Source: Anaerolineaceae bacterium
GTDB lineage: Bacteria > Chloroflexota > Anaerolineae > Anaerolineales > Anaerolineaceae
Assembly: GCA_020845515.1 (NCBI GenBank)
Contig: JADLFQ010000042.1
Span: forward strand, 1-64,000
Direction of reading: 5' to 3'
Length of the DNA: 64,000 nucleotides
Shown: one piece after another, positions 12,709 to 50,780 of the stretch
How the letters are laid out: the number at the start of each line of letters is the position of its first letter
Numbering within the stretch: position 1 is the first letter of the stretch
Notes under the pieces: generated by a model
What the model was told of the DNA's origin: nothing
Databases searched by the model: none
The model's input: only the letters and a program-made list of their open reading frames with translations
Position numbers and translations under genes: made by a program

Positions 12709-14037
<1,329 letters not shown>

Positions 14038-14063
14038 TCCATGCTGCCAGACAAGGTGTCTTC

Positions 14064-17571: not shown

Positions 17572-17586
17572 AAAGGAATCCTTTCA

Positions 17587-18405: not shown

Positions 18406-18422
18406 TATTAGAGGAAACGGGT

Positions 18423-19349: not shown

Positions 19350-19384
19350 AAAAACGCCGGCAATCCGGTTTCAAAGAGGCCCCC

Positions 19385-20695: not shown

Positions 20696-20754
20696 AATGT
20701 CCTTCTCGATAGAACATCCAAACCATTTAACGTGAGGAAAGTGAGGAAAGTCTT

Positions 20755-22239
20755 ATGGCTGAAAAACTGAAAGAAATCCGCAAAGTAATCGCGCTCGATT
20801 CTGTTCCTTTTGAAGAGAGCCAGGTGATCGGCATCTCCAACCTCAGCGCGCTTGAAACCATCCGCAAGGAAGACATCCTGACCTCGCGCGGCGAGTTTGC
20901 CGGATATTTCTGCCAGGATGGGGAAGTCGTCGTCTTTCGCGACCGCATTGGGGCACGCAGCATCTACTATGCTTCGGACGGCAAGTCGGCATCCGTCTCC
21001 ACCGATCTGGGCTGGCTGGCAAAACAGGTGGACACCGCCCCCAACTGGGACTACATCCTCTCGGACTACATGACCTTTCAGATACCTTTCTCAGACGAGA
21101 CCTTTTTCAAGAACATCAAGCGTGTCATGCCCGGCGAGTGGGTGCAGATCAGCAAAACAGGTACCAAGCGGGAGACCTACTGGAAAGTTAAATTTGGCGA
21201 TGAGAAATTTAACGTTCGCCATTTGCGCGATCTGATCTACGACGCGGTTGATTACCGCCTGGGATTGATTGGCAGTTCCTACACCAGCTACCTGAGTGGC
21301 GGGATCGATTCCAGTTCCGCCACCATGCTGGCGCGGCCCGAGGTCAGCTTCTCCGGCTTCTATACCGAAGAAGGCTACTCCGAGATGGACTACATCGAAG
21401 CGGTCATCAAAAAGACAGACAGACCAGAGAAGTACATCCCTGTGCAGATTACTGAACAGAACTTTCAAGCCAACATGTCCTGCCTGCCCGAGATTCTGCC
21501 AAATCCGTGCGCCGGGCTGGGCTTGATTCCGCAGGTCATTGTGTCGCGTGAAGCCGCCAGCCAGGGCTACCAGTACGCGTTCACCGGCGAGGGCGGGGAT
21601 GAGATCTTTCTCGGCTACAATTGGAATACGATTGTGTTAACATTGGCCGAATCGGCGCGGGGGTTGAAGCGCGACCGTTACATGGTGCGTTATGAACCGA
21701 TGATTGACAAAGTCTTAAGCGATGGGTTTGCCACCTTTGCCGGCGGCTTGCTGGCACGCGGCGAGGATATGTTGTACGCCACCCGGCGCATTCTGGATAT
21801 CTGGGATCATGACGACGCAGTGGAGAACAACATTCACACTATCAACCTCAAGATCGGTCTGCCCGCCATCCTATCGCTGGATGAGTGTGTCGGTAAATAT
21901 ACAGGCGTTGAACCGGTCAGCCCGCTGATGGATCATCACATTGTCGAATATGCCTGTTCGATCCGTCCGCAGGAGCGCGCCCCCATCCCCAAATACATGC
22001 TGCGCGAAGCCATGGCAGGCATTCTGCCGGAGAAGGTACGTATGCGCTATGATAAAATGGGTTTTCCGGTACCGCATGAAAAGTGGAATTGGGATGCCCT
22101 CAAACCTGTAATGCAATCCCTGGCAGATCAAAAGGTCATGGACGTCAATCCTGCAAAACACACCACCATGAACCGGGAAACATGGGCGCTGTACTCCATC
22201 GAAACGTGGCGCCAGTATTATTTTGGAAATGGATCTTAA
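20755..22239 (+). CDS. asparagine-synthetase-like ATP-dependent ligase without glutaminase nucleophile
   Basis: This is a 494-residue protein. Residues ~180-430 are an asparagine synthetase C-terminal domain with the ATP pyrophosphatase loop YLSGGIDSSS (181-187) and GEGGDEIFLGYNWN. The N-terminal ~150 residues match only the second half of a class II glutaminase domain (GEFAGYFCQDG, FRDRIGARSIYYA); the catalytic Cys2 with the first half is missing. It therefore cannot hydrolyse glutamine itself and may use ammonia or another amine to amidate a carboxyl, for example a uronic acid of the glycan. GTGAGGAAAG repeats twice before the ATG as ribosome binding site. A canonical AsnB lies 8 kb downstream. 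Confidence 0.75.
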   Translation: MAEKLKEIRKVIALDSVPFEESQVIGISNLSALETIRKEDILTSRGEFAGYFCQDGEVVVFRDRIGARSIYYASDGKSASVSTDLGWLAKQVDTAPNWDYILSDYMTFQIPFSDETFFKNIKRVMPGEWVQISKTGTKRETYWKVKFGDEKFNVRHLRDLIYDAVDYRLGLIGSSYTSYLSGGIDSSSATMLARPEVSFSGFYTEEGYSEMDYIEAVIKKTDRPEKYIPVQITEQNFQANMSCLPEILPNPCAGLGLIPQVIVSREAASQGYQYAFTGEGGDEIFLGYNWNTIVLTLAESARGLKRDRYMVRYEPMIDKVLSDGFATFAGGLLARGEDMLYATRRILDIWDHDDAVENNIHTINLKIGLPAILSLDECVGKYTGVEPVSPLMDHHIVEYACSIRPQERAPIPKYMLREAMAGILPEKVRMRYDKMGFPVPHEKWNWDALKPVMQSLADQKVMDVNPAKHTTMNRETWALYSIETWRQYYFGNGS

Positions 22240-22260
22240 ATCGTTTAAGGAGATTGTGAA

Positions 22261-23202
22261 ATGAAAATTTTGATCACTGGAGGAGCCGGTTTTATCGGTT
22301 CCCATCTGGCAGACCGCCTGCTGGCTCGCCGCGATGAGGTTTTGGTAATTGATAATTACGCCACCGGCCGGCACGACAACCTCTCAGCACAGCCCGGACT
22401 GAAAATCGTCGAAGGTACTATTGCGGATGAAGCGCTTGTCAATCGTGTTTTCGACGAGTTTGCCCCCGATGTCGTGATTCACGCTGCGGCTTCTTACAAG
22501 GACCCCCACAACTGGGTGGAAGATGCCCGCACCAACGCGCTTGGCACAGCCGTTATCGTCAAAGCCAGCGAGCGTTTGAATATCAAACGCATGGTGTACT
22601 TTCAAACCGCCCTGTGCTACGGCCTGCACCCCGTCGAGCAGCCCATCACGCTCAGCCACCCGCTCCGTCCCTTCGAGAGCAGCTATGCCATCAGCAAGAC
22701 CGCCGGCGAGAACTACATTTTCCTGAGCAGTCTGGATGCCATTTCCTTCCGCCTGGCAAATGCCTACGGCCCCCGCAATGTTAGCGGTCCCCTGCCAACT
22801 TTTTTCCACCGCCTCACCAATAACAAAGCTTGCTTCGTCATGGATACCCGCCGGGACTTCATCTATGTCCAGGACCTCATTAACGTCGTTCTCAAGGCAA
22901 TTGACGGCCAGGGTTCGCGCGGCGCGTACCATGTCTCTTCCGGCAGCGATTATGCCATCAAGGAACTGTACGACGCCACCCTCAAAGCCATGACAATCCA
23001 GCCCGAACAGGATGTGGAAGTCCGTCCGCGCAACCCGGATGACGCTTTCACTATCCTGCTTGACCCTTCCAAAACCAACAGCGATTTTAACTGGAAAGTT
23101 ACAACTCCGCTGGAACAAGGCGTCAAAGATGCAATCGAATGGTACCGCACCCACGATCTCGTAGAAACCTATACGCACCTCAAGGCGATAGACACAAAAT
23201 AG
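22261..23202 (+). CDS. extended SDR sugar-nucleotide epimerase/dehydratase
   Basis: This is a 313-residue enzyme of the NAD-dependent epimerase/dehydratase family. ILITGGAGFIGSHLADRLL binds NAD, SSYAISKTAGE supplies the catalytic Tyr-x3-Lys, and AYGPRNVSGPLPTFFHRL plus DTRRDFIYVQDL are typical of UDP-glucose 4-epimerase relatives. It acts on an NDP-sugar precursor of the surface glycan; which one is not visible. AAGGAGATTG precedes the ATG. The next gene encodes a related but clearly distinct SDR, so the two may act in succession. Confidence 0.78.
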   Translation: MKILITGGAGFIGSHLADRLLARRDEVLVIDNYATGRHDNLSAQPGLKIVEGTIADEALVNRVFDEFAPDVVIHAAASYKDPHNWVEDARTNALGTAVIVKASERLNIKRMVYFQTALCYGLHPVEQPITLSHPLRPFESSYAISKTAGENYIFLSSLDAISFRLANAYGPRNVSGPLPTFFHRLTNNKACFVMDTRRDFIYVQDLINVVLKAIDGQGSRGAYHVSSGSDYAIKELYDATLKAMTIQPEQDVEVRPRNPDDAFTILLDPSKTNSDFNWKVTTPLEQGVKDAIEWYRTHDLVETYTHLKAIDTK

Positions 23203-23220
23203 CACCGGAGAAGCTCATCA

Positions 23221-24270
23221 ATGCCCAATGTATTTGCCGAAAAAACAATTTTAATCACAGGCGGAGCCGGTTTTGTTGGCAGTAATCTGGTGCGCTCTCT
23301 CCTCGGTTTGGATGCCGGCGACATCCACGTGGTGGACAACCTGCTCTCTTCCGAGCGCGCCAATTTACCTGCAGACCCACGGGTGCATTTTACGAAGGAC
23401 TCAATTGCATCGGACCAAGTGCTCAACCATCTTCAGGATGAGTACGACTTTATCTTTCACCTAAGCACCTACCACGGCAACCAGAGCTCGATGCACAACC
23501 CGCTGGCCGACCATGAGAACAACCTGCTCACCACTCTCAAACTGCTGGAACGCGTCAAAAGCTTCAAACATCTCAAGAAACTGGTTTATTCCGGCGCGGG
23601 CTGCGCTGTAGCAGAAAAGACATACGACGACGCCCAGGCCACCCTGGAAGACGCCCCCATTTCAGTGAACTTCGACAGCCCCTATTCAATCTCAAAAATC
23701 GTCGGCGAATTTTACCTGGTGTATTATCATAACCAACACGGCGTTCCCGCTGTGCGCGCCCGCTTTCAAAACGTCTATGGACCCGGGGAAATTCTGGGCG
23801 CTGGTGAGTGGCGCGGCACCCCCGCCACCGTATGGCGCAACGTCACCCCCACTTTCATCTATAAAGCCCTGAAGGGCGAACCGTTGCCGCTGGAAGGAGA
23901 AGGCCTGACCAGCCGCGACTTCATTTTCGTCGAAGATATCGTACGCGGCCTGCTGGCTTGTGCCGAAAACGGCGCACCCGGCGACGCGTACAACCTCGCC
24001 AGCGGCATCGAAACCAGCATCCGCCAACTGGCCGATACGATCAATGAACTCACCGGCAACCCTGCACCGCTGCGCCTCCTGCCGCGCCGCACATGGGACC
24101 ATTCCGGCCGCCGCTTTGGCAGTACCAAAAAATCAAAAGAGAAGCTCGGTTTTGCCGCTCAAGTCAGTCTGCGCCAAGGGCTGGAGCGCACCGTAGATTG
24201 GACACGCCAGAACCTGAAATTGATCGAAAGCTGTATTCAAAAACACGCCAGTCATATGCCGCCCGCATGA
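23221..24270 (+). CDS. extended SDR sugar-nucleotide epimerase/dehydratase
   Basis: This is a 349-residue NAD-dependent epimerase family protein. ILITGGAGFVGSNLVRSLL is the nucleotide-binding loop, SPYSISKIVGE gives Tyr-x3-Lys, and NVYGPGE and SRDFIFVEDI are the usual sugar-binding motifs. It is 17 bases downstream of another SDR gene and overlaps the next gene by ATGA. The substrate is a nucleotide sugar, not further resolvable. Similarity to the preceding gene suggests ancient duplication within the family rather than a recent copy. Confidence 0.78.
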   Translation: MPNVFAEKTILITGGAGFVGSNLVRSLLGLDAGDIHVVDNLLSSERANLPADPRVHFTKDSIASDQVLNHLQDEYDFIFHLSTYHGNQSSMHNPLADHENNLLTTLKLLERVKSFKHLKKLVYSGAGCAVAEKTYDDAQATLEDAPISVNFDSPYSISKIVGEFYLVYYHNQHGVPAVRARFQNVYGPGEILGAGEWRGTPATVWRNVTPTFIYKALKGEPLPLEGEGLTSRDFIFVEDIVRGLLACAENGAPGDAYNLASGIETSIRQLADTINELTGNPAPLRLLPRRTWDHSGRRFGSTKKSKEKLGFAAQVSLRQGLERTVDWTRQNLKLIESCIQKHASHMPPA

Positions 24271-25454
24271 AAGACCGTATTAAAACCCTGGTGCTGGACG
24301 CCAATGGGTTCGGCTGGAAGCCCGTGGTTGCAGACACCCTGCTTCAAGGGGTCTTGCATATTCACGATTCGTCGAAACTGCCCCCATGGGTGCCCAAAAT
24401 CTCGCTGCTCCAGCGCGCTCTCAACCGGCATTATGAGGCGCTTTCGTACGTCATGGATTGGCGTGAAGAACTGGAGCGCGCCCCGGAGTTGGATGTTGAA
24501 GTGTGCAATATCAACAATTTGCTGGCGTTTACAAAAGCCCAGCGCGCGCTTGTAGAATATCCGCTTGTGATCATTTTGCACGCAGCCGCTGGCGACAGCA
24601 TGGTGCTGCTCTTGCGAGCTATTCGCTGGTTCCAAAAACGGCGCGGCAAGACCATATTGTTTATCGGCAATGAGTATGATCTTTTAGATCAAAAGATTCA
24701 TTTTATTCAGGAAGCAGGCGTTGAATATATCGGCAGCCAGCTTCCTGAAGCAACAGCGCGTTGGTTGTACGCCGAATGCGTCAACAGCAAAGTACTGCCG
24801 ATGCCGCATGCGCTCAACCCCCGCTTGTACCACCCCGGCGATGGACAAAAACGCCCCATCGAGCTCGGTTTTCGCGGCGCGCGTTACCCCTTATTCATCG
24901 GAGACACTGAGCGCAACGACCTGCTGGACGATTTTGAGCGCGGCGCCTCTGCCTGGGGGTTGAACATTGATTTTGGTTACAAGACCATCCGGCGGGGCAA
25001 TTGGGCTGAATTTTTGCGAAGCTGCAAGGCAGTGATCGGCGCCGAAGCAGGTACTTATTATCTCGATAAGCGCGGTCATGCCATTACTTCCGCCCGGCGC
25101 TACCAACACAACCACCCGCGGGCGCGCCTTAAAGAAATTAAGGAGCAATTTTTTAACCCCTTAACCAATTACATTTCCGGAAAATGTATCTCCTCGCGGC
25201 ACTTCGAGCCAATCGGCGCCAAGGCCTGCCAGGTCTTGCTGGAGGGGAATTACAACGGCATCCTCAACGCCGATGAGCACTACATCAAAATAAACAAGGA
25301 TAAATCAAACATCGAGGACGTCATCCGGCGATTGCGGGATGAAGAGTATCGCAGACAAATTGTCGAACGCGCCTATGAGCACATCCTGCAAAACCATACT
25401 TACGCCCACCGCGTGCTCAAACTCGTGCAAACACTGGAAGAGGATGGTCTATAG
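24267..25454 (+). CDS. CgeB-like glycosyltransferase (second of two related genes)
   Basis: This is a 395-residue soluble protein. The ATG at 24267 overlaps the SDR stop and is chosen over the track's upstream start, which lies in the SDR gene. The C-terminal half parallels the protein at 19385: NWAEFLRSCKAVIGAEAG, ISSRHFEPIGAKACQVLLEGNYNGIL, HYIKINKDKSNIEDVI. The N-terminal half includes VIILHAAAGDSM and ILFIGNEYDL strands of a Rossmann-like domain. It is probably a GT-B-type glycosyltransferase assembling the glycan. The next gene begins 2 bases downstream. Confidence 0.65.
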   Translation: MKDRIKTLVLDANGFGWKPVVADTLLQGVLHIHDSSKLPPWVPKISLLQRALNRHYEALSYVMDWREELERAPELDVEVCNINNLLAFTKAQRALVEYPLVIILHAAAGDSMVLLLRAIRWFQKRRGKTILFIGNEYDLLDQKIHFIQEAGVEYIGSQLPEATARWLYAECVNSKVLPMPHALNPRLYHPGDGQKRPIELGFRGARYPLFIGDTERNDLLDDFERGASAWGLNIDFGYKTIRRGNWAEFLRSCKAVIGAEAGTYYLDKRGHAITSARRYQHNHPRARLKEIKEQFFNPLTNYISGKCISSRHFEPIGAKACQVLLEGNYNGILNADEHYIKINKDKSNIEDVIRRLRDEEYRRQIVERAYEHILQNHTYAHRVLKLVQTLEEDGL

Positions 25455-25455
25455 G

Positions 25456-26634
25456 ATGGCAGCGGCGCAAGGCGTAAAAACCCGGGTTGCTTTTCTGGTG
25501 CGCTCGCTTGAATACGGCGGCGCCGAGCGCCAGTTAGCCGCGCTTGTCACCCGCATGGACCGGCAGCGTTTCGAGCCTGCCGTGCTGTGCTTCTATCCGG
25601 GTGGTGAATTTGAGGCCGAAATACAAGGTGCAGGTGTCCCCGTGATTCATATAGGCAAAACCGGCCGCTGGGACTGGCTGCGTTTCTTTGTCCGCCTGGT
25701 GCGCAAACTCAAAGAACTGCGCCCGCATATCCTGCACGGCTACCTGGAAACCCCCAACATCCTCAGCGTCCTGCTCAAGCCATTCTTACCCGGTGTGCGG
25801 GTGGTCTTCGGCCTGCGTGCTTCCAACATGAACATGATACTGCATCGCTATCCCTGGGTGATCCGTCTGCCTTACGCCGTCCAGCCTTTTTTCGCGCGGG
25901 GAGCCAGTCTGTGCATTGCCAACTCGCAAGCGGGTAAGGCTTTCTGGTGCAGTAAAGGCATACCGGAAGAAAAGACTCTCGTCATTCCAAACGGCTTCAA
26001 CACACAAAAATTCATCCCCAATCTTGCTCTGGCGGCTCCGCTGCGTGACCTGTGCGGCGTACCGGGTCATACTCCGCTCATCGGTGCAGTCGGCCGCCTG
26101 GATCCGCCAAAAGGCTGCGAGGTCTTCCTTAAAGCAGCTGCTCTTTTGATCTCCGCCAAACCGGAAGTTCGCTTCCTCTGGGTAGGAGATGGCCCACCGG
26201 CCTATCGCGCCGAACTGGTCCAACTGGCAGCTTCGCTGGGGGTCTCACCACAGGTTGTGTGGTTGGGTGCACGCCCGGATGTTGCCAGGTTATACAACGC
26301 CTTCGATATTTTTTGCTCCTCATCTCTTGGAGGAGAGGGTTTTCCCAACGTGCTTGCGGAGGCAATGGCTTGTGGAATCTTCTGCGTCGCGACGTCGGTT
26401 GGCGATACCGCCAGCATCCTGAACGGAGAGGGCTTCATCGTCCCACCAGGTGACCCGCAGGCGCTCGCGGCTGCATTGCAGCGCGCCCTCGACCTTCCGC
26501 CGGAGGTCAGGCAACAGAGCGGCGAGCGCTCCCGCCGGCGCATCATGGAGGAATACTCGATGGACAAGATGGTCAACCGCACCCAAGACGCCCTGGTCAG
26601 GCTGACCTCTCATCCCAAACAGGTAATAAAATGA
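25456..26634 (+). CDS. glycosyltransferase family 4 (GT-B)
   Basis: This is a 392-residue retaining glycosyltransferase. Its N-terminal domain starts VAFLVRSLEYGGAERQLAAL, and the C-terminal GT1-type domain has VIPNGFNTQKF, AVGRLDPPKGCEVFLKAA, VGDGP and EGFPNVLAEAMACG with the EX7E motif that binds the donor nucleotide sugar. It acts on the cytoplasmic face, adding a sugar to the lipid-linked unit. The ATG at 25456 gives the family's normal N-terminus; the longer ORF start overlaps the previous gene. Confidence 0.83.
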   Translation: MAAAQGVKTRVAFLVRSLEYGGAERQLAALVTRMDRQRFEPAVLCFYPGGEFEAEIQGAGVPVIHIGKTGRWDWLRFFVRLVRKLKELRPHILHGYLETPNILSVLLKPFLPGVRVVFGLRASNMNMILHRYPWVIRLPYAVQPFFARGASLCIANSQAGKAFWCSKGIPEEKTLVIPNGFNTQKFIPNLALAAPLRDLCGVPGHTPLIGAVGRLDPPKGCEVFLKAAALLISAKPEVRFLWVGDGPPAYRAELVQLAASLGVSPQVVWLGARPDVARLYNAFDIFCSSSLGGEGFPNVLAEAMACGIFCVATSVGDTASILNGEGFIVPPGDPQALAAALQRALDLPPEVRQQSGERSRRRIMEEYSMDKMVNRTQDALVRLTSHPKQVIK

Positions 26635-26700
26635 AAACGCTGCAAACAAATTCCCTCGCTCGCACACGGTTGTACACAAAATGATGGAAAATGAGGCTGC

Positions 26701-27981
26701 ATGAATTTTGAGAAAGTTTGTGTCATCGGGTTAGGCTATATCGGTCTGCCGACCGCCGCGACGCTTGCCGCGCACAGTCTGCAAGTTACCGGCGTGGACA
26801 CCAACGCCCATGTGGTCAGCAATCTACAAAATGGGCAGGTGCATATCCGCGAAGGTGGTTTGAACGCGCTGGTACAATCGGTATTGGAAGCGGGGCGGCT
26901 GACCATCCGCAGCGCGCCTGAAAAAGCCGACGCCTTTATCATTGCCGTCCCCACACCATTCTATGAGGATAAGCGCGCTGACTTGAGCGCCGTCATGCGC
27001 GCCACCGAAGCGATTGCGCCGGTTCTTGCCCCCGGCAACCTCGTCGTCCTCGAATCGACCTCCCCTCCCGGAACCACCCGTAATCTGGTTGTCCCTATTC
27101 TGGAACGTTCCGGCCTGAAAGCTGGCCGCGATTTTTATGTCGCCTATTCTCCCGAACGCGTCCTGCCAGGTCAGATTTTGCGGGAGTTGGTGGAAAATGC
27201 CCGTGTAATCGGGGGAATTGACGCCGCATCTGCCGAGGCGGGTTGTGACCTCTATCGCATATTTGTCAAAGGGGAGATCATCCTAACCGATTGCACCACC
27301 GCGGAGATGGTCAAGCTTATGGAGAACACCTCCCGCGACATTAATATCGCCATTGCCAACGAATTCTCGCGCCTGGCAGACCATCTTGGCATTGATATAT
27401 GGGAGGCGGTGAAGATTGCCAACCTGCACCCGCGCGTCAATATTCTCCAGCCCGGCCCCGGAGTGGGCGGACATTGCATCAGTGTTGATCCCTGGTTCCT
27501 GGTGGAAGCCGCACCCCACCTCACACCGCTTATTCGGACAGCCCGCCAGGTTAATGACGCCCAGCCACGCTTTGTCCTACAGATCATCGAACGCGCCGCC
27601 GGCGGTTCACTGGCAGGGATGCGCATCGGCATTCTTGGCTTATCCTACAAACCCAATGTGGATGACCTGCGTGAAAGCCCCGCCATTCAGATTGCATATT
27701 TGCTGAAAGAAGCAGGTGCTGTGATAACCGCTTACGAACCCAACTGCCCCGCCGCTGTATTGGAAGGATTGAACACCGTTAGCGCTCTTCAACCGGCCGT
27801 GCAGAATGCGGAACTGTTGGTTTTACTGGTTGCTCATGAAACCTTCCGGCAGTTACAGCCGCAAGAACTGGTGCAACTCACCCCGGCGCGGGCAGTAGTG
27901 GATTGCGTTCACCTATGGAATCACCCGTCCTGGCAGCAAGCCGGGTTCACTGTACACTTTTTGGGAGTGCGAAAGGAGTAG
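26701..27981 (+). CDS. wecC: UDP-N-acetyl-D-mannosamine dehydrogenase-like (WecC)
   Basis: This is a 426-residue NAD-dependent nucleotide-sugar dehydrogenase. VIGLGYIGLPTAATLA is the Rossmann loop, ESTSPPGTT and YSPERVLPG are family motifs, and the catalytic cysteine sits in GPGVGGHCISVDPWFLVE, the form seen in WecC enzymes making UDP-ManNAcA. It differs clearly from the dehydrogenase at 12.7 kb. UDP-ManNAc could come from the epimerase at 8.9 kb. A 66-base spacer precedes it. Confidence 0.8.
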   Translation: MNFEKVCVIGLGYIGLPTAATLAAHSLQVTGVDTNAHVVSNLQNGQVHIREGGLNALVQSVLEAGRLTIRSAPEKADAFIIAVPTPFYEDKRADLSAVMRATEAIAPVLAPGNLVVLESTSPPGTTRNLVVPILERSGLKAGRDFYVAYSPERVLPGQILRELVENARVIGGIDAASAEAGCDLYRIFVKGEIILTDCTTAEMVKLMENTSRDINIAIANEFSRLADHLGIDIWEAVKIANLHPRVNILQPGPGVGGHCISVDPWFLVEAAPHLTPLIRTARQVNDAQPRFVLQIIERAAGGSLAGMRIGILGLSYKPNVDDLRESPAIQIAYLLKEAGAVITAYEPNCPAAVLEGLNTVSALQPAVQNAELLVLLVAHETFRQLQPQELVQLTPARAVVDCVHLWNHPSWQQAGFTVHFLGVRKE

Positions 27982-28013
27982 CCGGCCGGTCGCTTTGACC
28001 ACCGGATGGTGCC

Positions 28014-29117
28014 ATGCCTGAAAACAGCTCCGCCAGGGTTGCCCTTTTCTTACCGGACCTCCGCCCCGGCGGCGCCGAGCGTGTAATGTTACAGCTTGCC
28101 GGGGGGTTTTACGAGGCCGGCTACCCGGTTGACCTGGTCGTCGTCCATGCCGTGGGCGCACTATACGATGAAATTCCACCTGGCGTGCGGTTGATTGATC
28201 TTAAGGCGAGCAGTGAATACACCTGCCTTCCTGCTTTGCTGCGCTATTTGCGCCAGAACAAGCCGCGCACCTTGCTTTCCACCATGATTCTTGCCAATTG
28301 GTTGGTGCTCCTGGCGGTCAAACTCATCGGCTTAAAGACGCGGGTCATTTTGAGGGCAGCCACCACCGTTTCCCGCCAATGGCGCTCATCGGCTTTCAAG
28401 AAATGGCTGGAACGCCTCCTCGTTCATTTGCTCTACCCGCACTCCGATGGCATTGTCGCCGTCTCACAGGGTGTTGCGCGAGACCTGATCTCGTATGCGC
28501 ATGTGCCCCCCGGCCATATCCAGGTGATCCCCAACCCAATCATCTCCGAAGCGATGCTCCAAAAATCTCTCCAGCCTCTGCCATCCAGCTTTGAGCTTTC
28601 CAGCCAAGTCCCGCTGATCCTTTCTGCAGGGCGGTTGGAGCCCGAAAAAGACTTCCCAACCCTGCTGCGGGCTTTTGCGCTCGTCCGGCGCGAGAGGCCA
28701 GCGCAGTTGCTCATCTTGGGCGAAGGGAAGGAGCGCCGCTCCCTTTCCGCCTTGATCGAAGCACTCAACATTTCAACAGACGTGCAGATGCCCGGATACG
28801 CACAAAACCCATTGGCGTACATGCGTAATGCCGGTGCTTTTGTGCTTTCTTCAGCCTGGGAGGGACTCCCCAACGTTCTGATCGAAGCAATGGCTTGCGA
28901 TTGCCCGGTGATCAGCACCGATTGTTCCAGCGGACCGGCTGAAATTCTCAACGGGGGAAAATACGGCTACCTGGCGCCCGTAGGTGATTATGAAGCAATT
29001 GCAGCCGCGATCCACTCGGTGCTGGACGGTGAGAAGCGTCTGCCCCCGCCGGAATGGCTGGAGCAATACCGTGTGGAGCGGGTAGTGGCGCAGTATCTTG
29101 CTATCCTGGGCTTTTAG
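28014..29117 (+). CDS. glycosyltransferase family 4 (GT-B)
   Basis: This is a 367-residue GT-B glycosyltransferase. VALFLPDLRPGGAERVMLQLAGG begins the acceptor domain; VIPNPI, SAGRLEPEKDFPTLLRAF, ILGEGKERRSL and WEGLPNVLIEAMACDCPVI with EX7E form the donor domain. It probably extends the lipid-linked oligosaccharide. It lies 32 bases after the dehydrogenase and is followed 23 bases later by an AsnB-type amidotransferase, an association common in exopolysaccharide clusters. Confidence 0.83.
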   Translation: MPENSSARVALFLPDLRPGGAERVMLQLAGGFYEAGYPVDLVVVHAVGALYDEIPPGVRLIDLKASSEYTCLPALLRYLRQNKPRTLLSTMILANWLVLLAVKLIGLKTRVILRAATTVSRQWRSSAFKKWLERLLVHLLYPHSDGIVAVSQGVARDLISYAHVPPGHIQVIPNPIISEAMLQKSLQPLPSSFELSSQVPLILSAGRLEPEKDFPTLLRAFALVRRERPAQLLILGEGKERRSLSALIEALNISTDVQMPGYAQNPLAYMRNAGAFVLSSAWEGLPNVLIEAMACDCPVISTDCSSGPAEILNGGKYGYLAPVGDYEAIAAAIHSVLDGEKRLPPPEWLEQYRVERVVAQYLAILGF

Positions 29118-29140
29118 GCGATGAGCCAGAGAGGAACACC

Positions 29141-31057
29141 ATGTGCGGCATAACAGGATTTCTGGAACCAGCGCACCATATGAATGCTGCTGAGCTTCAC
29201 GCGCGTGCTGTCCGCCTGGCAGATGCCATTCAACACCGCGGGCCCGATGACAGCGGTGCCTGGGTGGACGAAAACACTGGCCTTGCGATGGGCTTTCGCC
29301 GCCTGGAGGTTCACAATCTCTCCCCTCTCGACCGCCAGCCGATGTTTTCTGCAGATGAACGCTATATCATTGTCTTCGACGGCGAAATCTATAACCGCGT
29401 CAAGTTGCGTGAACAGCTTCGTACACAGGGGCGATTTCTCCGCGGGCGTTCGGATGCCGGGATCATTCTGGCGGGAATGGTACAGTGGGGTCTGCTGCCA
29501 ACACTCGAACGGCTGAACGGCATGTTCGCCTTTGCCTTATGGGATTGCCGTGAGCGGCGGCTCTTTTTAGCGCGCGATCGCATGGGAGTCAAACCGCTTT
29601 ACTATGGCTGGTCGGGCGGGGTGTTTTTGTTCGCTTCCGAACTGAAAGCCATGCGGAAGCACCCTGCTTTCCACGCCAGCGTCAACCCGGACGCCCTCAC
29701 GCTATTGCTGCGCTACGGCTACATCCCCGCTCCGCATACCATCTATCATGGTATTCATAAACTCCAGCCGGGCACGGCGCTGGAAGTTGCACCCGATGGC
29801 TCAGCAGGCACACCTCAAGTCTTTTGGTCAGCCCGGCAAACCGCCGTACAGGGGGTTCTGCACCCCTTTAATGGCAGCGAAAGAGATGCCGTTGACCAAT
29901 TGGATACCCTCCTGCGCGACAGCATTGGCTTGCGCATGGCCGCCGATGTACCTTTGGGAGCATTTCTCTCCGGGGGCATCGATTCCTCAACCATCGTAGC
30001 GCAAATGCAGGTGCAAAGCAGCCGCCCGGTCAAAACGTTTACTCTCGGGTTTTCCGAAGCCGGTTTCAACGAGGCGGAGCACGCGCGCGCGATTGCCCGC
30101 CATTTGCAAACCGAACACACAGAACTGGTCGTCACCTCACAAGACGCCCTGGGAGTTATCCCACTGCTGCCGGAAATATACGACGAACCGTTTGCCGACT
30201 CCTCCCAGATCCCCACCTACCTGGTCTCCCGTCTGGCACGCCAACAGGTGGCGGTCGTCCTGTCCGGCGATGGAGGCGACGAGCTCTTCGCCGGCTACAA
30301 CCGCTATCGAGGCTTAAGCCGGTTGTGGAAGGATGTGGGTTGGGTTCCGCAACCGTTACGCCTGCTGGCAAAAGACACGCTGGATCTTCTATCAGCCAGC
30401 GGATTGAATCAAGCCCGCTTGCCGCTCTTCCTGCAAAAAGCGCTGCGCGACCGGCATATATTGCCTGCCCCAACTCCGCAGTCACTCTACCATCGGTTTA
30501 TTTCTTTATGGCAGCAGCCGGCTGCCGCCCTACGAAACGGAATGGAGCCACCCACAAACCTGACAGACCCAAACCAGTGGCCTTCCGAACTCGACTTTGA
30601 CCACTGGATGATGTATATGGACCTGAGTACTTCCCTGCCGGATGATAGTCTGGTCAAGACCGACCGCGCCGGCATGGCTGTCAGCCTGGAAACTCGCGCT
30701 CCCCTGCTGGATGATCATCGTCTGATCGAGTTCGCCTGGCGCATCCCGCTTGGCATGAAAATTCGAAACGGGCATGGCAAATGGCTGCTGCGCCAGGCGC
30801 TTTGTCGCTATGTCCCCCCCGTGTTGGTGGAGCGCCCCAAGCAAGGCTTCATGATCCCGCTGGCGGACTGGCTGCGCGGCCCCCTGCGCCCGTGGGCGGA
30901 GGCACAATTCGTCCCCACGCGTCTGGCGCAGGAAGGGTTCTTCAAACCTGCCATGATCCGGGAGAAGTGGCAGCAATTCCTGGAGGGAAAGAACGCCGCC
31001 TCCATGGAACTGTGGACAGTGCTGATGTTCCAAGCCTGGCTGGCACACAACAGATAA
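29141..31057 (+). CDS. asnB: asparagine synthase (glutamine-hydrolysing), AsnB type
   Basis: This is a 638-residue two-domain amidotransferase. It begins MCGITGF with the Cys2 nucleophile of class II glutaminases, followed by HRGPDDSG, RLEVHNLSP and DGEIYN. The synthetase domain has FLSGGIDSSTIVAQ and SGDGGDELFAGYNRY. The length matches AsnB. Inside a polysaccharide cluster such enzymes may amidate a uronic acid rather than make free asparagine; this is inference. The ATG is preceded by GAGAGGAA. It is the complete counterpart of the shortened homologue at 20755. Confidence 0.85.
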   Translation: MCGITGFLEPAHHMNAAELHARAVRLADAIQHRGPDDSGAWVDENTGLAMGFRRLEVHNLSPLDRQPMFSADERYIIVFDGEIYNRVKLREQLRTQGRFLRGRSDAGIILAGMVQWGLLPTLERLNGMFAFALWDCRERRLFLARDRMGVKPLYYGWSGGVFLFASELKAMRKHPAFHASVNPDALTLLLRYGYIPAPHTIYHGIHKLQPGTALEVAPDGSAGTPQVFWSARQTAVQGVLHPFNGSERDAVDQLDTLLRDSIGLRMAADVPLGAFLSGGIDSSTIVAQMQVQSSRPVKTFTLGFSEAGFNEAEHARAIARHLQTEHTELVVTSQDALGVIPLLPEIYDEPFADSSQIPTYLVSRLARQQVAVVLSGDGGDELFAGYNRYRGLSRLWKDVGWVPQPLRLLAKDTLDLLSASGLNQARLPLFLQKALRDRHILPAPTPQSLYHRFISLWQQPAAALRNGMEPPTNLTDPNQWPSELDFDHWMMYMDLSTSLPDDSLVKTDRAGMAVSLETRAPLLDDHRLIEFAWRIPLGMKIRNGHGKWLLRQALCRYVPPVLVERPKQGFMIPLADWLRGPLRPWAEAQFVPTRLAQEGFFKPAMIREKWQQFLEGKNAASMELWTVLMFQAWLAHNR

Positions 31058-31131
31058 ATTCCCCATTTTTTCGGTTTAACCTTTGCCCCCGTCTCCCCGA
31101 CCCTGCTGCGCCTCAGGGGAGAGATCGGAGA

Positions 31132-31140
31132 TGGTATAAT
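31132..31140 (+). promoter_or_regulatory. extended -10 promoter element before the 31194 glycosyltransferase
   Basis: TGGTATAAT is a perfect extended -10 box in the 136-base gap after asnB. The start codon lies 54 bases downstream. No good -35 is seen, as is usual for extended -10 promoters. It suggests a second transcription unit for the last part of the cluster. Confidence 0.5.
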
Positions 31141-31193
31141 TTCAGACGACTACACTACGTGAAAGGCTCATTATTTCCATTCTGAATGCTCCT

Positions 31194-32357
31194 GTGACAA
31201 AACCGCAAGCAATCCTGTTCGTCGGAACACAAATGGCGGTGGGTGGCGCGCAAAAATTGCTCTTGCAGCTTGCAAGCTGGTTCCACCAGCGCGGCTGTCG
31301 GGTTACCGCAGCCTTTTTTTATGACCGCGACAACCTGGCGCAGGAATGGCAGGACCGCTACCCTTTTCCGGTGCTCGCACTCGGCCGCTGGAAAAAGAAC
31401 GTTTCCGCAGTGTTCCAAGCCTGGCGTGTACTCCAAAGCCTCTCACGGCTCTTTGTTTTAATGAAAAAGGAACGCTTTTCTTCCATGTTGGTTTTCACCC
31501 ACCACAGCAGTTTGCTCGCGCTGCCGCTGGCCTGGCTGGCAGGGATTCCCGTGCGGGTGGCGTCTCACCGCGGCCGTATTCTTGGCCTGCCCTGCTGGCA
31601 GGAGCATCTGCACGCATGGATGATCAATGTGGGACTCTCGACAGCGCTGGTTGCAGTCTCCGAGCAAGTACGCCAGCAGTCCGTTGAAGAAGGCATCCGG
31701 CCCGAAAAAATTGTCGTCATTCCCAACGGCGTTGATCAGCCGGATATCCCGTCGGAACGAGCAGCCGCGGTGCGGGAGGGGCTTGCTCTGCAGGAGAATG
31801 GCTTTTTGATCCTCAGCGCGGGCCGCCTGTGGGCGGAAAAAGGGCACGTTCATCTGGTCAATGCGATGCCCGAAATATTACGCGCTGCGCCCAACGCTAT
31901 TTTGGCGCTGGCAGGTGAAGGCGCACTGCGCACGGAACTGGAAGCACAGGCGCGCAGCCTTGAGATTGCGGAGCATGTCCGCTTTTTAGGAACCCGCCTG
32001 GACGTTCTGGACTGGATGGCGGCCGCCGATGTGTTCGTTCTCCCTTCCAATTCGGAGGGGATGCCCAACGCACTGCTTGAAGCAATGGCATTGGGGCGGG
32101 CTGTAGTCGCTACCCGCGTGGGCGGCGTGCCGGAAGTAGTCAAAGACGGACAAAACGGCCTGCTCGTCCCGCCACAGAACCCCTCCGCTCTGGCATCTGC
32201 CATCCTCCACCTTCTCCTCACACCACAAGAGCGGCAGCGCCTTGGTCAAAACGCCCGGCTGATGATTCAGCAAAATTTCGAAATTGAAAAAATGCGCCAA
32301 CAATACGCGGCGTTGCTTGAACCCCGCTTCCACAAGAGGTGCCATGTACAAGATTAG
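31194..32357 (+). CDS. glycosyltransferase family 4 (GT-B)
   Basis: This is a 387-residue glycosyltransferase starting at GTG. ILFVGTQMAVGGAQKLLLQLA opens the N-terminal domain; VVIPNGVDQPD, SAGRLWAEKGHVHLVNAM, LAGEGALRTEL and SEGMPNALLEAMALGRAVV with EX7E form the nucleotide-sugar domain. It is the third GT4-like enzyme of the cluster and overlaps the next gene slightly. No strong ribosome binding site is seen before the GTG, so the start is less certain than the family. Confidence 0.82.
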   Translation: MTKPQAILFVGTQMAVGGAQKLLLQLASWFHQRGCRVTAAFFYDRDNLAQEWQDRYPFPVLALGRWKKNVSAVFQAWRVLQSLSRLFVLMKKERFSSMLVFTHHSSLLALPLAWLAGIPVRVASHRGRILGLPCWQEHLHAWMINVGLSTALVAVSEQVRQQSVEEGIRPEKIVVIPNGVDQPDIPSERAAAVREGLALQENGFLILSAGRLWAEKGHVHLVNAMPEILRAAPNAILALAGEGALRTELEAQARSLEIAEHVRFLGTRLDVLDWMAAADVFVLPSNSEGMPNALLEAMALGRAVVATRVGGVPEVVKDGQNGLLVPPQNPSALASAILHLLLTPQERQRLGQNARLMIQQNFEIEKMRQQYAALLEPRFHKRCHVQD

Positions 32358-45252: not shown

Positions 45253-45319
45253 CGATCCGTGGAACATTGCGGAATGTAGCAGCGTCATTAATGAAAGGTT
45301 ACAAATGAAGGAGGGTAGA

Positions 45320-46549
45320 ATGCCTTTCAAAAAGTCTCAAATTTTAATCATTGCATTCTTGTTCTTGATAATAACAGCCGCATGTACGATTCTCTCATCT
45401 GCCCCGCAGGTTGCACCAGGACAGGCTGAAACAGCAGTGATGTACACAGCCGAAGCGGAGTTGACGCAGATATCAGTAAACACGCTAATTGCACAACTCA
45501 CCCAGTTGGCACAGGCCTCTCCAACATCCCCGCCGCCTACAGAAACTCTCGTGCCGCCCACGCTGACAGCCACCGCAACCACTACGGCAACGCCGCTGCC
45601 CCCCACACTGACGCCTATCATCGCCAGTGTAACACCTTTCCCCACCAGCACCCCGCTTAACACTCCTGTCCCGTGCCTTTCAGTGCTGTTTGTCACCGAT
45701 GTCAGCGTTCCAGATAACACCGTCATGAATCCCAACCAGGCTTTTGTCAAGACCTGGCGGCTGAAAAATAACGGAAGCTGCGCCTGGACACCCGATTTTG
45801 ATATAGTCTTCGTAGGCGGCAGCGTTTTGAGCGCGCCCGGCACACAGAAATTAAACACAACCATCAACCCCGGTCAGACTATTGACATCTCAATTTCCAT
45901 GATCGCGCCAGCAGGTGAAGGCGTCTATAAAGGAGATTGGAAGCTGCGGAGTTCCACAGGTATTGTTTTTGGGCTGGGACAAACTGGCTCGGTACCTTTC
46001 TGGGTAAAAATTCAGGTAAAACCCGTAGTGGTCTTCACCCCTGCGCCCGGCACAGCATTAGATTTCGCATCCAGCTACTGTCAGGCCTCGTGGTCCAGTT
46101 CAACCGGGAATTTAAGCTGTCCAAGCCCAGGTGAAGATTTCACCAATGGCGCGATACGTTATACAACCACACCCAAATTAGAGGGGGGTTACCAGGATGA
46201 TGAGCCAACTCTCATCCTAATTCCCAACAATGGCAGCGGTGGATTTATCAGTGGGCAATATCCGGCTATTACCGTGCAAGCAGGTGACCGTTTTCAGGCT
46301 TTGATCGGCTGTCTCTACAACAGTCCCAACTGCAACGTCATGTTTCAGTTGAATTACAGCATAGGCGGTGGCGCCATTCAGAATCTGGGAACCTGGACGG
46401 AGGTGTCGGATGGAAACTACACACGCATTGATGTGCCCGTCGGTGGTTTAGCCGGACAGTCAGTTCAATTTATCCTGTATGCAAATAATAACAATGGTGT
46501 TTCCACTGATGACCGGCTCTTCGTAATGGTGCCTCGCATTAAACGCTAA
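45320..46549 (+). CDS. lipoprotein with NBR1-type Ig-like domain
   Basis: This encodes a 409-residue exported lipoprotein. A hydrophobic start with lipobox TAAC (Cys ~22) is followed by a Thr/Pro-rich stalk to residue ~120. Then comes an Ig-like domain of the NBR1 central-domain family: SVPDNTVMNPNQAFVKTWRLKNNGSCAWTPDFDIVFVGG to KGDWKLRSSTGIVFG. The C-terminal ~160 residues form a second beta-rich domain that I do not recognise. The ATG at 45320 is chosen over 45305 because GGAGGG stands at ideal distance. It is likely a surface protein binding polymers or other surface proteins. Confidence 0.78.
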   Translation: MPFKKSQILIIAFLFLIITAACTILSSAPQVAPGQAETAVMYTAEAELTQISVNTLIAQLTQLAQASPTSPPPTETLVPPTLTATATTTATPLPPTLTPIIASVTPFPTSTPLNTPVPCLSVLFVTDVSVPDNTVMNPNQAFVKTWRLKNNGSCAWTPDFDIVFVGGSVLSAPGTQKLNTTINPGQTIDISISMIAPAGEGVYKGDWKLRSSTGIVFGLGQTGSVPFWVKIQVKPVVVFTPAPGTALDFASSYCQASWSSSTGNLSCPSPGEDFTNGAIRYTTTPKLEGGYQDDEPTLILIPNNGSGGFISGQYPAITVQAGDRFQALIGCLYNSPNCNVMFQLNYSIGGGAIQNLGTWTEVSDGNYTRIDVPVGGLAGQSVQFILYANNNNGVSTDDRLFVMVPRIKR

Positions 46550-46626: not shown

Positions 46627-46663
46627 ATGCCTGGAGGTGCAATTCGCTTGCCAGATTCTGTCC

Positions 46664-46713
46664 ATTTCAATATTGAAATATCGCTTTGCAAAGCACAAAA
46701 AAATTACTATACT
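46664..46713 (+). promoter_or_regulatory. promoter with two perfect palindromes before the tandem-repeat protein
   Basis: ATTTCAATATTGAAAT (46664-46679) and GCTTTGCAAAGC (46683-46694) are perfect palindromes three bases apart. The second contains the -35 TTGCAA (46686-46691), which is 16 bases from the -10 TATACT (46708-46713). The arrangement suggests regulator binding that blocks or guides RNA polymerase. The gene starts ~50 bases downstream with AGGAGG. Confidence 0.6.
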
Positions 46714-46762
46714 AATAGGACAAATCTTTCGTATTTCAGTCAATAATTGCAGGAGGCGGGTT

Positions 46763-48103
46763 ATGAAAACAATTTTTTCTACAGTCTTTAGGGCAAATCG
46801 CACCGCACGGTTCGCCATTCAAGGGACAATTGTGGCTCTGTTGGTGCTCTCGCTCATGCTGCCTATAGCCCGGCCAGTTCAAGCTGCCATTCCAACCTTC
46901 TCCATTGTCTCTGTAGTAACAGATAGTACAGTGACCATCCAGACCTATAATTTCCCTGCCGGGCAGGAATTCACCGTCCGGATGGGCGCATTCGGCACCC
47001 TGGCAATTGGCGGTGTGGTGGTGGGGACGGTTAATTCAGGCGCGGGCGGTTCTTTCAGTGCCACCTATGCCATTCCGGCTTCCCTGGCAGGCAGCGCCCA
47101 AATAGCCATCCGTATGGACAGCCCGGCAGGATATTATGCTTACAACTGGTTCTACAACAACACAGCCTCCGGCGGGACGGGCGGTCCGGTTTACACCGGC
47201 ATTCCAACCTTCAATATCGTCAGTGTAATGCAGGATGATAAAGTAACCATCAAGACCAACAACGTCCCTGCAGGGCTGAACTTTACAGTTCGCATGGGCG
47301 CCTATGGAACCCTGGCTCTGGGGGGTGTTGTTGTGGGAACCACAAATTCGGGCGGAGGCGGCTCATTTGAAGCAACGTACAGCATCCCAGATTCCCTGAA
47401 AGGCAGTTACCGTATCGCCATCCGCATGGACAGTACCGCCGGCCACTATGCGTACAACTGGTTTTACAACAATACCAGCAGCGGAACAGGCGGCCCGGCG
47501 TATAGCGGAGTCCCAACTTTTAGCATCCTCTCCGTCGTACAGGATAGTACGGTAACCATCAAGGCCAACAACTTCCCTGCAGGATTGGATTTTAAAGTGC
47601 GCATGGGCGCGTACGGCACCCTCGGTATCGGCGGCATCGAAGTTGCCACTACCAACTCAGGCGCAGGTGGCTCTTTTGAAGCAACCTACACCATTCCGGC
47701 TTCCCTGGCAGGCAGCTACCAGATTGCCATCCGCCTGGAAAGCAGCGCCGGTTATTACGCCTACAATTGGTTCTACAATAACACAACCTCCGGCGGAACA
47801 GGCGGTCCTGTGTATACGGGTATTCCCACTTTCAGCATCGTCAGCGTCGTGAACAACAGTCACGTGACCGTACAGACTTCCAACCTCCCCCCCAGCCAGA
47901 ATTTTACCGTGCGTATGGGCCCCTATGGCTCTTTGGGGATCGGCGGGATCGAGGTGGCCACCATCAATTCCGGCGCGGGCGGGTCACAAACGTTCACCTT
48001 CACCATCCCTGCAGCGCTTTATGGCAGTTCTCAGATTGCAATCCGCATGGACAGCCCGATAGGGTATTACGCTTTCAACTGGTTCTATAATACGACCACT
48101 TAA
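46763..48103 (+). CDS. secreted protein of four ~104-residue tandem repeats
   Basis: This encodes a 446-residue exported protein. A twin-Arg-free signal peptide (hydrophobic GTIVALLVLSLMLP, cleavage near VQAA) precedes four tandem repeats starting IPTFSIVSVV. Each contains FTVRMGAYGTL, GGV/IVxxTxNSGAGGSF, IPASLAGSxQIAIRMDSxAGYYAYNWFYNNT and a GGTGGPVYTG linker; the last lacks the linker. The repeats are probably small beta-sandwich domains, and the mature protein is made of nothing else. AGGAGG lies before the ATG at 46763; the ORF track start 42 codons upstream crosses the promoter. It is likely an abundant surface or extracellular protein, but no family is recognised. Confidence 0.8.
   Translation: MKTIFSTVFRANRTARFAIQGTIVALLVLSLMLPIARPVQAAIPTFSIVSVVTDSTVTIQTYNFPAGQEFTVRMGAFGTLAIGGVVVGTVNSGAGGSFSATYAIPASLAGSAQIAIRMDSPAGYYAYNWFYNNTASGGTGGPVYTGIPTFNIVSVMQDDKVTIKTNNVPAGLNFTVRMGAYGTLALGGVVVGTTNSGGGGSFEATYSIPDSLKGSYRIAIRMDSTAGHYAYNWFYNNTSSGTGGPAYSGVPTFSILSVVQDSTVTIKANNFPAGLDFKVRMGAYGTLGIGGIEVATTNSGAGGSFEATYTIPASLAGSYQIAIRLESSAGYYAYNWFYNNTTSGGTGGPVYTGIPTFSIVSVVNNSHVTVQTSNLPPSQNFTVRMGPYGSLGIGGIEVATINSGAGGSQTFTFTIPAALYGSSQIAIRMDSPIGYYAFNWFYNTTT
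46889..48103 (+). repeat. four in-frame tandem repeats of 309-312 bases
   Basis: Units lie at 46889-47200, 47201-47509, 47510-47821 and 47822-48103. Units 1 and 3 are 104 codons, unit 2 is 103, and unit 4 is shorter by the linker and the most divergent in sequence. Divergence between units argues against a very recent expansion. Confidence 0.88.
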
Positions 48104-48123: not shown

Positions 48124-48162
48124 AAAAAATCTCCGGTGGAATTAATTGCCGGAGATTTTTTC
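48124..48162. terminator. bidirectional-looking rho-independent terminator
   Basis: AAAAATCTCCGG pairs with CCGGAGATTTTTT around a 12-base loop, and a T-run follows on the plus strand; on the minus strand the A-run gives a matching T-run. It lies 20 bases after the repeat-protein gene and before the end of the convergent gene at 48228. Confidence 0.82.
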
Positions 48163-48227: not shown

Positions 48228-50780
48228 TTAGGGCAATACCGTGGTGTAGATCTCGTTGCCAAATGCCAGGATTCCTGTTCTCCCAGGCGCAATAGCAAAT
48301 GCACTCATTGGCCGCTTGGGGGTGATACTTCCATCCTCAAATTGAGGACGCAGCAAATATTGCAGGTTTAATTTGAGGCTGAAGAGATAAATGCTGGATT
48401 CCCCTTGTTCTACGATGTAAAGGGCCGGGTCAGGGGGTTCCGAAGCAAGTAATTTTATAAATTTGGCGTCCGGGAAGAGCACTACGTCCGAAGCGCGGTT
48501 GGGACGGGCATCACCAAAAGCCGCCGGGTCTTTGCAATCCACCGTCGAATAGGTGTAATTGCGCTGGGTACACCACCCAACCCGGCTGTTGGCGTAGAGA
48601 ATAAATAAGTCCTCATTGAAGGCAATATCCACCGTTTGATCCAGTGTCGAAGGGATATAGTTATCAAAGGCATTGTGCGCTTCGGTATCATAAATACCTC
48701 GTTCGCCGTCGAAGTAAACGATCTGTTTCAGCCCGGTATCAGCCACGTACAGGCTGTCTGCTTGGATATCGCGCGCGATAGCAGTAATATTACTCCAACC
48801 CTCCCTGTCAGTTTTGGGCAATTCCCGGGCAAACGGTTCATCACCTGGAACGCAATAAAGCAAATGTCCATGGGCATCCGCCGCCAGAATCGAAGCGTTG
48901 TATTTATTGGAAAATTCAAGCGCAACCACATCCACCACCGGGCCGATCTGTAAAGCCCCTACAACGCCGGGACCGCATTTGAAAGCCGCATCCACCTCAT
49001 ATCCTTGCGCCGTCATAAACATCCGCAAAATGCGTCCGTCGGTCTGGTTGAGCAAGTAAAGATCACCATTATCCGCCACGACAATATCCGTAATGTTGAC
49101 GTTGGCAGGGAAAGGCGTCAGCAGGGCTGGCAGGAGCAGCAGGCGCTGCACGCCTTCCAGCCGGTCAATAGACTGCTGCACCTGAGACCGCAGCGTGCGC
49201 GACTCATCCGTCTTTCCGTATCCTTCAGCCTTTTCCAGCCATGTCTCACTCTGTTTCCACAACGTTTCTTGTAAAGCCGGGTCGTTTTGTGCCATCGCCT
49301 GATTAGCGTACTTTTGAGCTTCTTGCAGGTAAAGGTAATGCGGTTCCTTCCATCCACTGCGGGAATAAATTGTCGTGGCAATCGCTACAATCACCAGTGG
49401 GACTGCAACTGCAATAAACAGCAAAGTAGAGGGCGGCAAACCTGCAGAGCGGCTTGCAGAGGAGGCAGGCATCAGGCGGCTGGTAAAGGTTTTTATGCGT
49501 GTCTGAATTTTCTCCAGCGTTGCTTTTCCCTGAAACCATCCGGACGCAATTTTCTTGCGAATCAGAATATCCGCGCCGGGTTGGCCGGAAGCTCTTGCCG
49601 CGGCGCGAGCTGGTATGCGGCCTGGTGTCGGTTCGCCGCCATACCGCTGCGGCCTGCTGCTTGTCTGCCCTGTTCGACTGGCTGATGGAGAAGATACACC
49701 CCCTGGTGCGGGTCTCCTTCGCGGCGCTGACTGACTGCCGCCAATATATATCCCTTCGCTGCCTGCTGCCGGTTCCGTGCTGGCATCGAACGGCGTGGCT
49801 TCTTTTACTACAGGAGGATGTGGGGGGACAAAGGATACCGATCCAACCGTTTCCACTGGTTCGGTATCCGGTTGTGTCTGTGCCAGAGATTCGTCCCTCT
49901 CCAGGCGATCGGGAGGTGCCGCTGAAAATGGCGTTTCTGCAAGTACTGAAGCTGCGGCGCCCTCTGTGCCCATTGCGGGGTCAAAGGGGGGCGGAGAGGG
50001 TGGCTGCATTTCCAGCTCATCGGGTAAGGCGGCCGGTTCCGGCGTCTTCTCCGGCTCAATTGTCTGCGGAGCAACCGGTACGAGGCGCGGCTTAAGGCGA
50101 TGGATAGCACCTTTCCCGGCCTGAAACTGTACCACCACCGCTTGCAGGTTCTCTCCGCTCTGGCTCAACAGCCGCCTGCGAAGTTGTTCAAAGGTGAGTT
50201 GTGGACTGCCTGTCAAAGTGGCCGCGTTCCAATTCTCCGGAGGCGCAGGCGAGAGCAGCAAAAGATCTTTGGCATGTAGAGCTGCCTGCGAAAACTGCAC
50301 ACTGACATTCCGGCCTACACCCAAAGCACGGCTGCCTGGAGCACTGTCTGGCTTAAAAAAGGTTACCTCATCAGCACTTAATAAAATTACGTGCGTCTGC
50401 CCGGCCTGTGCCAGATACAGGTTCTCCCGGCGGATGACGGCCAGATTAAGTGCGGCTGTAAGTGGGGCGCCCTGCGAGGCTTTTTGTAAATTATCCTTTA
50501 ACAGCAGGTTATTAAGTTCCTCTATCGCGGACCGTAGCCCGGCCGTAACCGAACCGCGTGCAGAAAAATAGGTCTCTGCACATTTTTTTAACAGAGCTTC
50601 GATCTGTTCATCCGCCGGAAGCACGCCGCTTCCCAGGCTGAAATACGCCAACAGCAGATCCGCCGCCCTGCTGCGCTCACATCCTCTGGATGCAGCCGCA
50701 GCCCACAAACCCGGCAGGCTGCTTTGTTCTTGCCCGCTGCTAATATTGAACGTCAACAGATAGAGATCGAAAATTCCCAA
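48228..50780 (-). CDS. membrane-anchored protein with PP2C-like N-terminus and C-terminal beta-propeller
   Basis: This is an 850-residue protein. Residues ~1-225 recall PPM/PP2C phosphatases (APLTAALNLAVIRRENLYLAQAGQTHVILL resembles the TAxxAxIxxxxLxxAxxGDSRxxLL core), but Gln-Thr stands where the GDSR aspartate should be and no N-terminal DG motif is seen, so it is probably catalytically inactive. A ~200-residue Pro/Ala/Ser-rich region follows, then one membrane helix (~447-472), a helical coiled segment, and from ~555 a beta-propeller-like NHL/YncE-type domain (ITDIVVADNGDLYLLNQTDGRILRMF) outside the membrane. The TTG start has GAGGGA upstream. It is probably a signalling or scaffold protein; homologues are frequent in Chloroflexota. 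Confidence 0.68.
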   Translation of the reverse strand: MGIFDLYLLTFNISSGQEQSSLPGLWAAAASRGCERSRAADLLLAYFSLGSGVLPADEQIEALLKKCAETYFSARGSVTAGLRSAIEELNNLLLKDNLQKASQGAPLTAALNLAVIRRENLYLAQAGQTHVILLSADEVTFFKPDSAPGSRALGVGRNVSVQFSQAALHAKDLLLLSPAPPENWNAATLTGSPQLTFEQLRRRLLSQSGENLQAVVVQFQAGKGAIHRLKPRLVPVAPQTIEPEKTPEPAALPDELEMQPPSPPPFDPAMGTEGAAASVLAETPFSAAPPDRLERDESLAQTQPDTEPVETVGSVSFVPPHPPVVKEATPFDASTEPAAGSEGIYIGGSQSAPRRRPAPGGVSSPSASRTGQTSSRPQRYGGEPTPGRIPARAAARASGQPGADILIRKKIASGWFQGKATLEKIQTRIKTFTSRLMPASSASRSAGLPPSTLLFIAVAVPLVIVAIATTIYSRSGWKEPHYLYLQEAQKYANQAMAQNDPALQETLWKQSETWLEKAEGYGKTDESRTLRSQVQQSIDRLEGVQRLLLLPALLTPFPANVNITDIVVADNGDLYLLNQTDGRILRMFMTAQGYEVDAAFKCGPGVVGALQIGPVVDVVALEFSNKYNASILAADAHGHLLYCVPGDEPFARELPKTDREGWSNITAIARDIQADSLYVADTGLKQIVYFDGERGIYDTEAHNAFDNYIPSTLDQTVDIAFNEDLFILYANSRVGWCTQRNYTYSTVDCKDPAAFGDARPNRASDVVLFPDAKFIKLLASEPPDPALYIVEQGESSIYLFSLKLNLQYLLRPQFEDGSITPKRPMSAFAIAPGRTGILAFGNEIYTTVLP

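Follow-up and report, generated by a model that had tools for sequence, protein, structure and literature searches.

The 64-kb window considered here (the whole stretch of DNA that was analysed, 64,000 nucleotides) contains a gene whose product, after a signal-peptide-like N-terminus, is made of repeats only, and two perfect palindromes lie within a span of 31 bases at its promoter. This arrangement raises two questions: what role such a protein could play for the cell, and whether the palindromes take part in regulating its gene. The answers depend on the architecture and predicted fold of the protein, on its distribution and gene neighbors, and on the conservation of the sequences that flank the gene.

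Architecture and predicted fold of the repeat protein

The gene occupies positions 46763–48103 on the + strand and is translated from an ATG at 46763 into a protein of 446 aa; it occurs once in its own genome. Residues 1–41 (46763–46885) read by eye as a signal peptide, with a charged N-terminus, a hydrophobic core and an AxA-type site at which cleavage is predicted between PVQA and AIPTF, and this putative signal supports the original prediction of a secreted protein. The mature protein has ~405 residues, a mass of 42 kDa, a pI of 6.1 and zero cysteine residues. Its repeats correspond to residues 43–146 (104 aa; 46889–47200), 147–249 (103 aa; 47201–47509), 250–353 (104 aa; 47510–47821) and 354–446 (93 aa; 47822–48103 including the stop codon), the last of which is without a linker and stops 11 residues sooner than the others, where the folded unit ends. 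Pairwise identities among the four are 59–79% in protein and 64–74% in DNA, far exceeding chance and confirming that the mature protein is composed of four repeats of ~104 residues. Each repeat closes with a conserved aromatic motif, YYAYNWFYNN.

Although the type of repeat had not been recognized in the original prediction, its fold now can be. An AlphaFold2 model of the whole protein (46 sequences in the input) contains four all-beta domains with a mean pLDDT of 87.7, linkers below 50 and a pTM of 0.41, so that the model leaves the positions of the domains relative to one another undefined. Repeat 3 modelled alone (50 sequences) has seven strands and a pLDDT of 97.4. We predict with confidence that each repeat is a seven-stranded Ig-like beta-sandwich with a flexible linker leading to the next, and both the models and Foldseek comparisons describe a series of such domains. 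With a single repeat, Foldseek returns many kinds of Ig-like beta-sandwiches, including complement MG domains, neocarzinostatin, the archaellum protein FlaG and an archaeal pilin, with TM-scores of up to 0.65 among the matches listed and none with an E-value below 0.001. With the whole model it returns multi-domain Ig-like proteins, the best being the macroglobulin (MG) domains of complement C3/C5 and alpha-2-macroglobulins. However, the whole-model TM-score to MG proteins is at most about 0.36 and the repeat protein is without a thioester or other features of that group; two of its relatives match MG2 weakly, and we take the MG likeness, judged from models, as generic fold similarity. The structural matches in general are generic, and Ig-like folds fill many roles.

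Also among the whole-model matches are a bacterial ice-binding adhesin (5irb) and the grappling-hook protein GhpA (9flw), which, together with GhlA, share with the repeat protein a serial, beads-on-a-string arrangement of Ig-like domains. GhlA of Litorilinea aerophila contains DUF11 repeats and has 6,596 residues (PMC13319060). These proteins differ from the repeat protein in three respects. First, they are giants (5,898 residues in GhpA, 6,596 in GhlA, and an adhesin titled 1.5 MDa) in comparison with the four domains here. Second, the identity of the repeat protein to the adhesin and GhpA in structural alignment is only 10–15%. Third, GhpA and GhlA have DUF11 domains, for which neither the repeat protein nor its relatives give a match.

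A repeat-profile search of the kind originally proposed does not produce a convincing named family. The best profile match is Pfam Gmad2 (PF10648), an Ig-like domain of bacterial spore germination, which the whole protein matches at 36.4 bits against a gathering cut-off of 25.7, but only when summed over its repeats; the profile is only partly matched, and a single repeat scores 19.2. Among relatives, Gmad2 is matched by 9 of 46 proteins (E≤0.01) and 3 of 50 repeats (E≤1), and others have weak, scattered matches to Ig-like or unrelated families instead. Because Gmad2 fails for the single repeat and few relatives match it, we refer to the repeat as Ig-like without a family name. Sequence searches gave no solved homologue, and a profile search for one yielded only E-values of 0.54 or greater. 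Searches of Pfam and NCBIfam identified no catalytic family in the repeat protein or its relatives, and no SLH or other anchor domain in the repeat protein.

Distribution and gene neighbors

The repeat protein is a common constituent of its bacterial family. Of 101 genomes sampled from this family, 87 contain a match at E≤1e-5, as do 52 of the 57 better ones; the named records are Anaerolineae or other Chloroflexota, and include Leptolinea, Longilinea and Thermanaerothrix, which makes Anaerolineaceae the most likely identity of the family. Beyond the family, a draw of 249 genomes from the class gave matches in two more families, the match in one of these being weak, and a draw of 301 genomes from the phylum added just one further match, also weak. 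A scan of 84,980 species gave only Chloroflexota, with peptide patterns that favor close relatives. There are between one and four repeats per open reading frame in the fetched loci, usually two to four, with some reading frames cut by contig ends. Given its presence in 87 genomes and this range in repeat number, the protein is a core trait of variable length, and it belongs to a family of secreted Ig-like repeat proteins that is widespread, lineage-specific and unnamed. The literature surveyed on their envelope proteins gave no name for this family.

Individual repeats correspond by position between the source genome, its congener L013 and, largely, the sister lineage L014. Those of L015 and part of L019 group within their own protein, which points to later duplications. 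Two loci contain tandem pairs of repeat genes (L051, 4341–7017; L055, 354–3181), and in both the first gene encodes ~490 residues and has two diverged N-terminal repeats with scores of 41–47, versus about 90–110 for the others.

Directly upstream and on the same strand is a gene (45305–46549, +) encoding a probable lipoprotein, as judged by eye from a lipobox-like cysteine, with an NBR1-type Ig domain at residues 135–238 (Pfam N_BRCA1_IG, E=1.1e-24; ILRUN chain, E=5.6e-17). The NBR1/ILRUN-type Ig domain is better known from eukaryotic proteins; although present in this neighbor (PF16158), it has no match in the repeat protein itself. The C-terminal ~170 residues of the lipoprotein are without a Pfam match. 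An NBR1-Ig lipoprotein gene occupies this same position in 17 of 71 eligible loci and is missing from the other 54, so the pairing is not obligatory, and the lipoprotein may be a partner of the repeat protein in part of the family. Several of the closest loci have dnaK and a gene for an NfeD-like protein close by; other lineages have other neighbors, and no single gene context therefore defines the repeat family.

Two other parts of the window deserve mention. Convergent with the repeat gene, and conserved beside it in several relatives, is a gene for an 850-residue protein (48228–50780, − strand) with no Pfam match at 1e-3 and no NCBIfam match at 0.01. Farther away, a same-strand run of genes at 12709–32357 (+) has matches to a sugar dehydrogenase, a polysaccharide export-type protein, an epimerase, an asparagine synthase-like protein and several glycosyltransferases, and is probably a surface polysaccharide cluster.

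Promoter, palindromes and expression signals

A sigma-70-like promoter, TTTGCA-17-TATACT, is located at 46685–46713 (+), with its −35 at 46685–46690 and its −10 at 46708–46713, separated by a 17-base spacer. It has 9 of 12 matches in a promoter scan that is itself at background (2 found, 1.4 expected), and its conservation is better evidence than the scan: the −35 (TTTTCA in L013, TTTCCA in L014), the 17-base spacer and the sequence CTATACT are all retained in the congener and the sister lineage. Among 77 upstream regions of the family, 19.5% have CTATACT in the 140 bases that precede the chosen start, compared with 0.2% of 543 regions upstream of neighboring open reading frames at the same loci; the 77 are related and so do not provide a count of independent events.

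The gene is also bounded by the strong ribosome binding site and terminator that were originally described. A perfect Shine-Dalgarno sequence, AGGAGG (46751–46756, +), is positioned 6 bases before the ATG at 46763 and is perfect in many relatives too. Downstream, a hairpin flanked by an A run and a T run (48124–48161) folds at −22.4 kcal/mol with a z-score of −4.28; it emerged from folding, whereas a terminator scan reported none there, and since it is located between two convergent genes it could serve both. Within the 64-kb window there is no Rfam match to an RNA element. The proposal that the gene is highly expressed fares less evenly. Its codon usage ranks 36th among the 54 open reading frames in the window, which is average, by a measure that is narrow here and spans only 0.96–1.08, so the proposal depends only on the conservation of the promoter, including its −10 motif, and of the ribosome binding site.

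Both palindromes are perfect and lie where they had been described, the 16-base ATTTCAATATTGAAAT at 46664–46679 and the 12-base GCTTTGCAAAGC at 46683–46694, overlapping the −35 TTTGCA (46685–46690). That they are operators of a dedicated regulator of the repeat gene is a reading favored by the presence of two such sequences so close together at a promoter, and both 7-base arms of ATTTCAATATTGAAAT survive in L013 because the single change sits at the centre. Several observations make this reading improbable. First, palindromes are no more frequent in the window than expected by chance at this composition: 16 perfect ones of at least 12 bases were found against ~16 expected, and one of at least 16 bases against ~1. 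Second, GCTTTGCAAAGC is not a perfect palindrome in L013, and both are gone in L014. Third, the genome search that had been suggested gave no second gene sharing either sequence. ATTTCAATATTGAAAT has no other perfect copy, and five places match it with up to two mismatches (none for the reversed control), of which three are inside open reading frames, a fourth lies close to where a gene read as mraZ begins, on the opposite strand, and the fifth falls in a stretch without a clear open reading frame; the only other genome copy of GCTTTGCAAAGC is inside an open reading frame. A palindrome regulon is thus rejected, and the original suggestion of regulation through these two sites is not supported. 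The palindromes are real but look mostly chance-like and are weak evidence of regulation, and a regulatory role for ATTTCAATATTGAAAT within a genus is, from its sequence, possible but not supported.

Alignment of three upstream regions reveals a different block upstream of the promoter, TGCAATTCGCTTGCCA (46638–46653, +), which the original prediction had missed and which is better conserved than the palindromes. Its fixed positions (TGCAANTCGNTTGCCA) have no mismatches in L013 and L014, the two nearest relatives, and at least three in all others, and the block is a candidate operator or activator site. It contains a short inverted repeat, GCAA-N5-TTGC. As the signature of a regulon TGCAANTCGNTTGCCA was rejected, its only other exact genome copy being inside coding sequence.

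Possible roles at the cell envelope

The explanation that we favor, with modest confidence, is that the repeat protein is non-enzymatic and extracellular and serves the cell envelope or the extracellular matrix as a scaffold or by binding. It would be exported by the Sec pathway as four rigid Ig-like domains strung on flexible linkers, would be retained at the envelope through contacts with other envelope components, not through an anchor of its own, and in part of the family could have the upstream lipoprotein as its partner. An extracellular structural role, as in the original proposal of a surface or matrix protein, fits the predicted fold, and the location of the protein is something that we infer. 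Codon usage unlike that of an abundant protein weighs against the scaffold or binding reading, though the measure is narrow. Our confidence in any specific ligand or structure is less than in this general reading.

Among more specific roles, the one that survives best, while still unlikely, is that these filamentous bacteria build an ordered structure in their envelope (an S-layer, sheath or fibril) and that the protein is its principal subunit. Near-universal presence in the family, conservation of the −10 motif and Shine-Dalgarno sequence, and a protein made solely of Ig-like repeats are all consistent with it, and there is a precedent in another member of the Chloroflexota, Ca. Viridilinea mediisalina, whose filaments carry a hexagonal S-layer at the tips and are covered elsewhere by a fibrillar layer (PMC7332563). 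However, the mature protein is only 42 kDa and has flexible linkers, an SLH or other anchor was not found, and codon usage is average; moreover, Viridilinea comes from another lineage, and the analysis made no match between its S-layer protein and the repeat family. We consider it improbable that the protein instead binds carbohydrate or another extracellular substrate, as a string of modules holding cells to polysaccharide. The aromatic motif that ends each repeat could suit this role, and there are matches to CBM53 in two relatives, to CBM60 in one, and to a porphyran-binding module among the structural matches, but all of these are weak and isolated, and the repeats are not fused to a glycoside hydrolase, nor does one recur beside them in the listed neighbor families. 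It is more doubtful again that the protein forms the main structural subunit of an undescribed, family-specific envelope or sheath layer in which repeat number would tune the thickness or reach of the surface. Least probable is that it is a true Gmad2 member with the function that the Ig-like domain has in GerM-type germination proteins, a reading which the summed whole-protein score favors and which the single-repeat score, the few matching relatives and the matches of other relatives to unrelated Ig-like families disfavor.

As the evidence stands, the repeat protein is an uncharacterized protein of an ordinary-looking kind. Its named relatives belong to the Anaerolineaceae, whose sources include anaerobic digesters, hot springs and sediments. 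A secreted domain family that nearly all of their genomes possess, and that is almost absent from the rest of the phylum, can reasonably serve as a marker. It is also a candidate for the protein component of a cell surface about which little is known and, if it is indeed a component of the envelope or matrix as the scaffold or binding reading proposes, it would offer a way to approach how these cells stay together.
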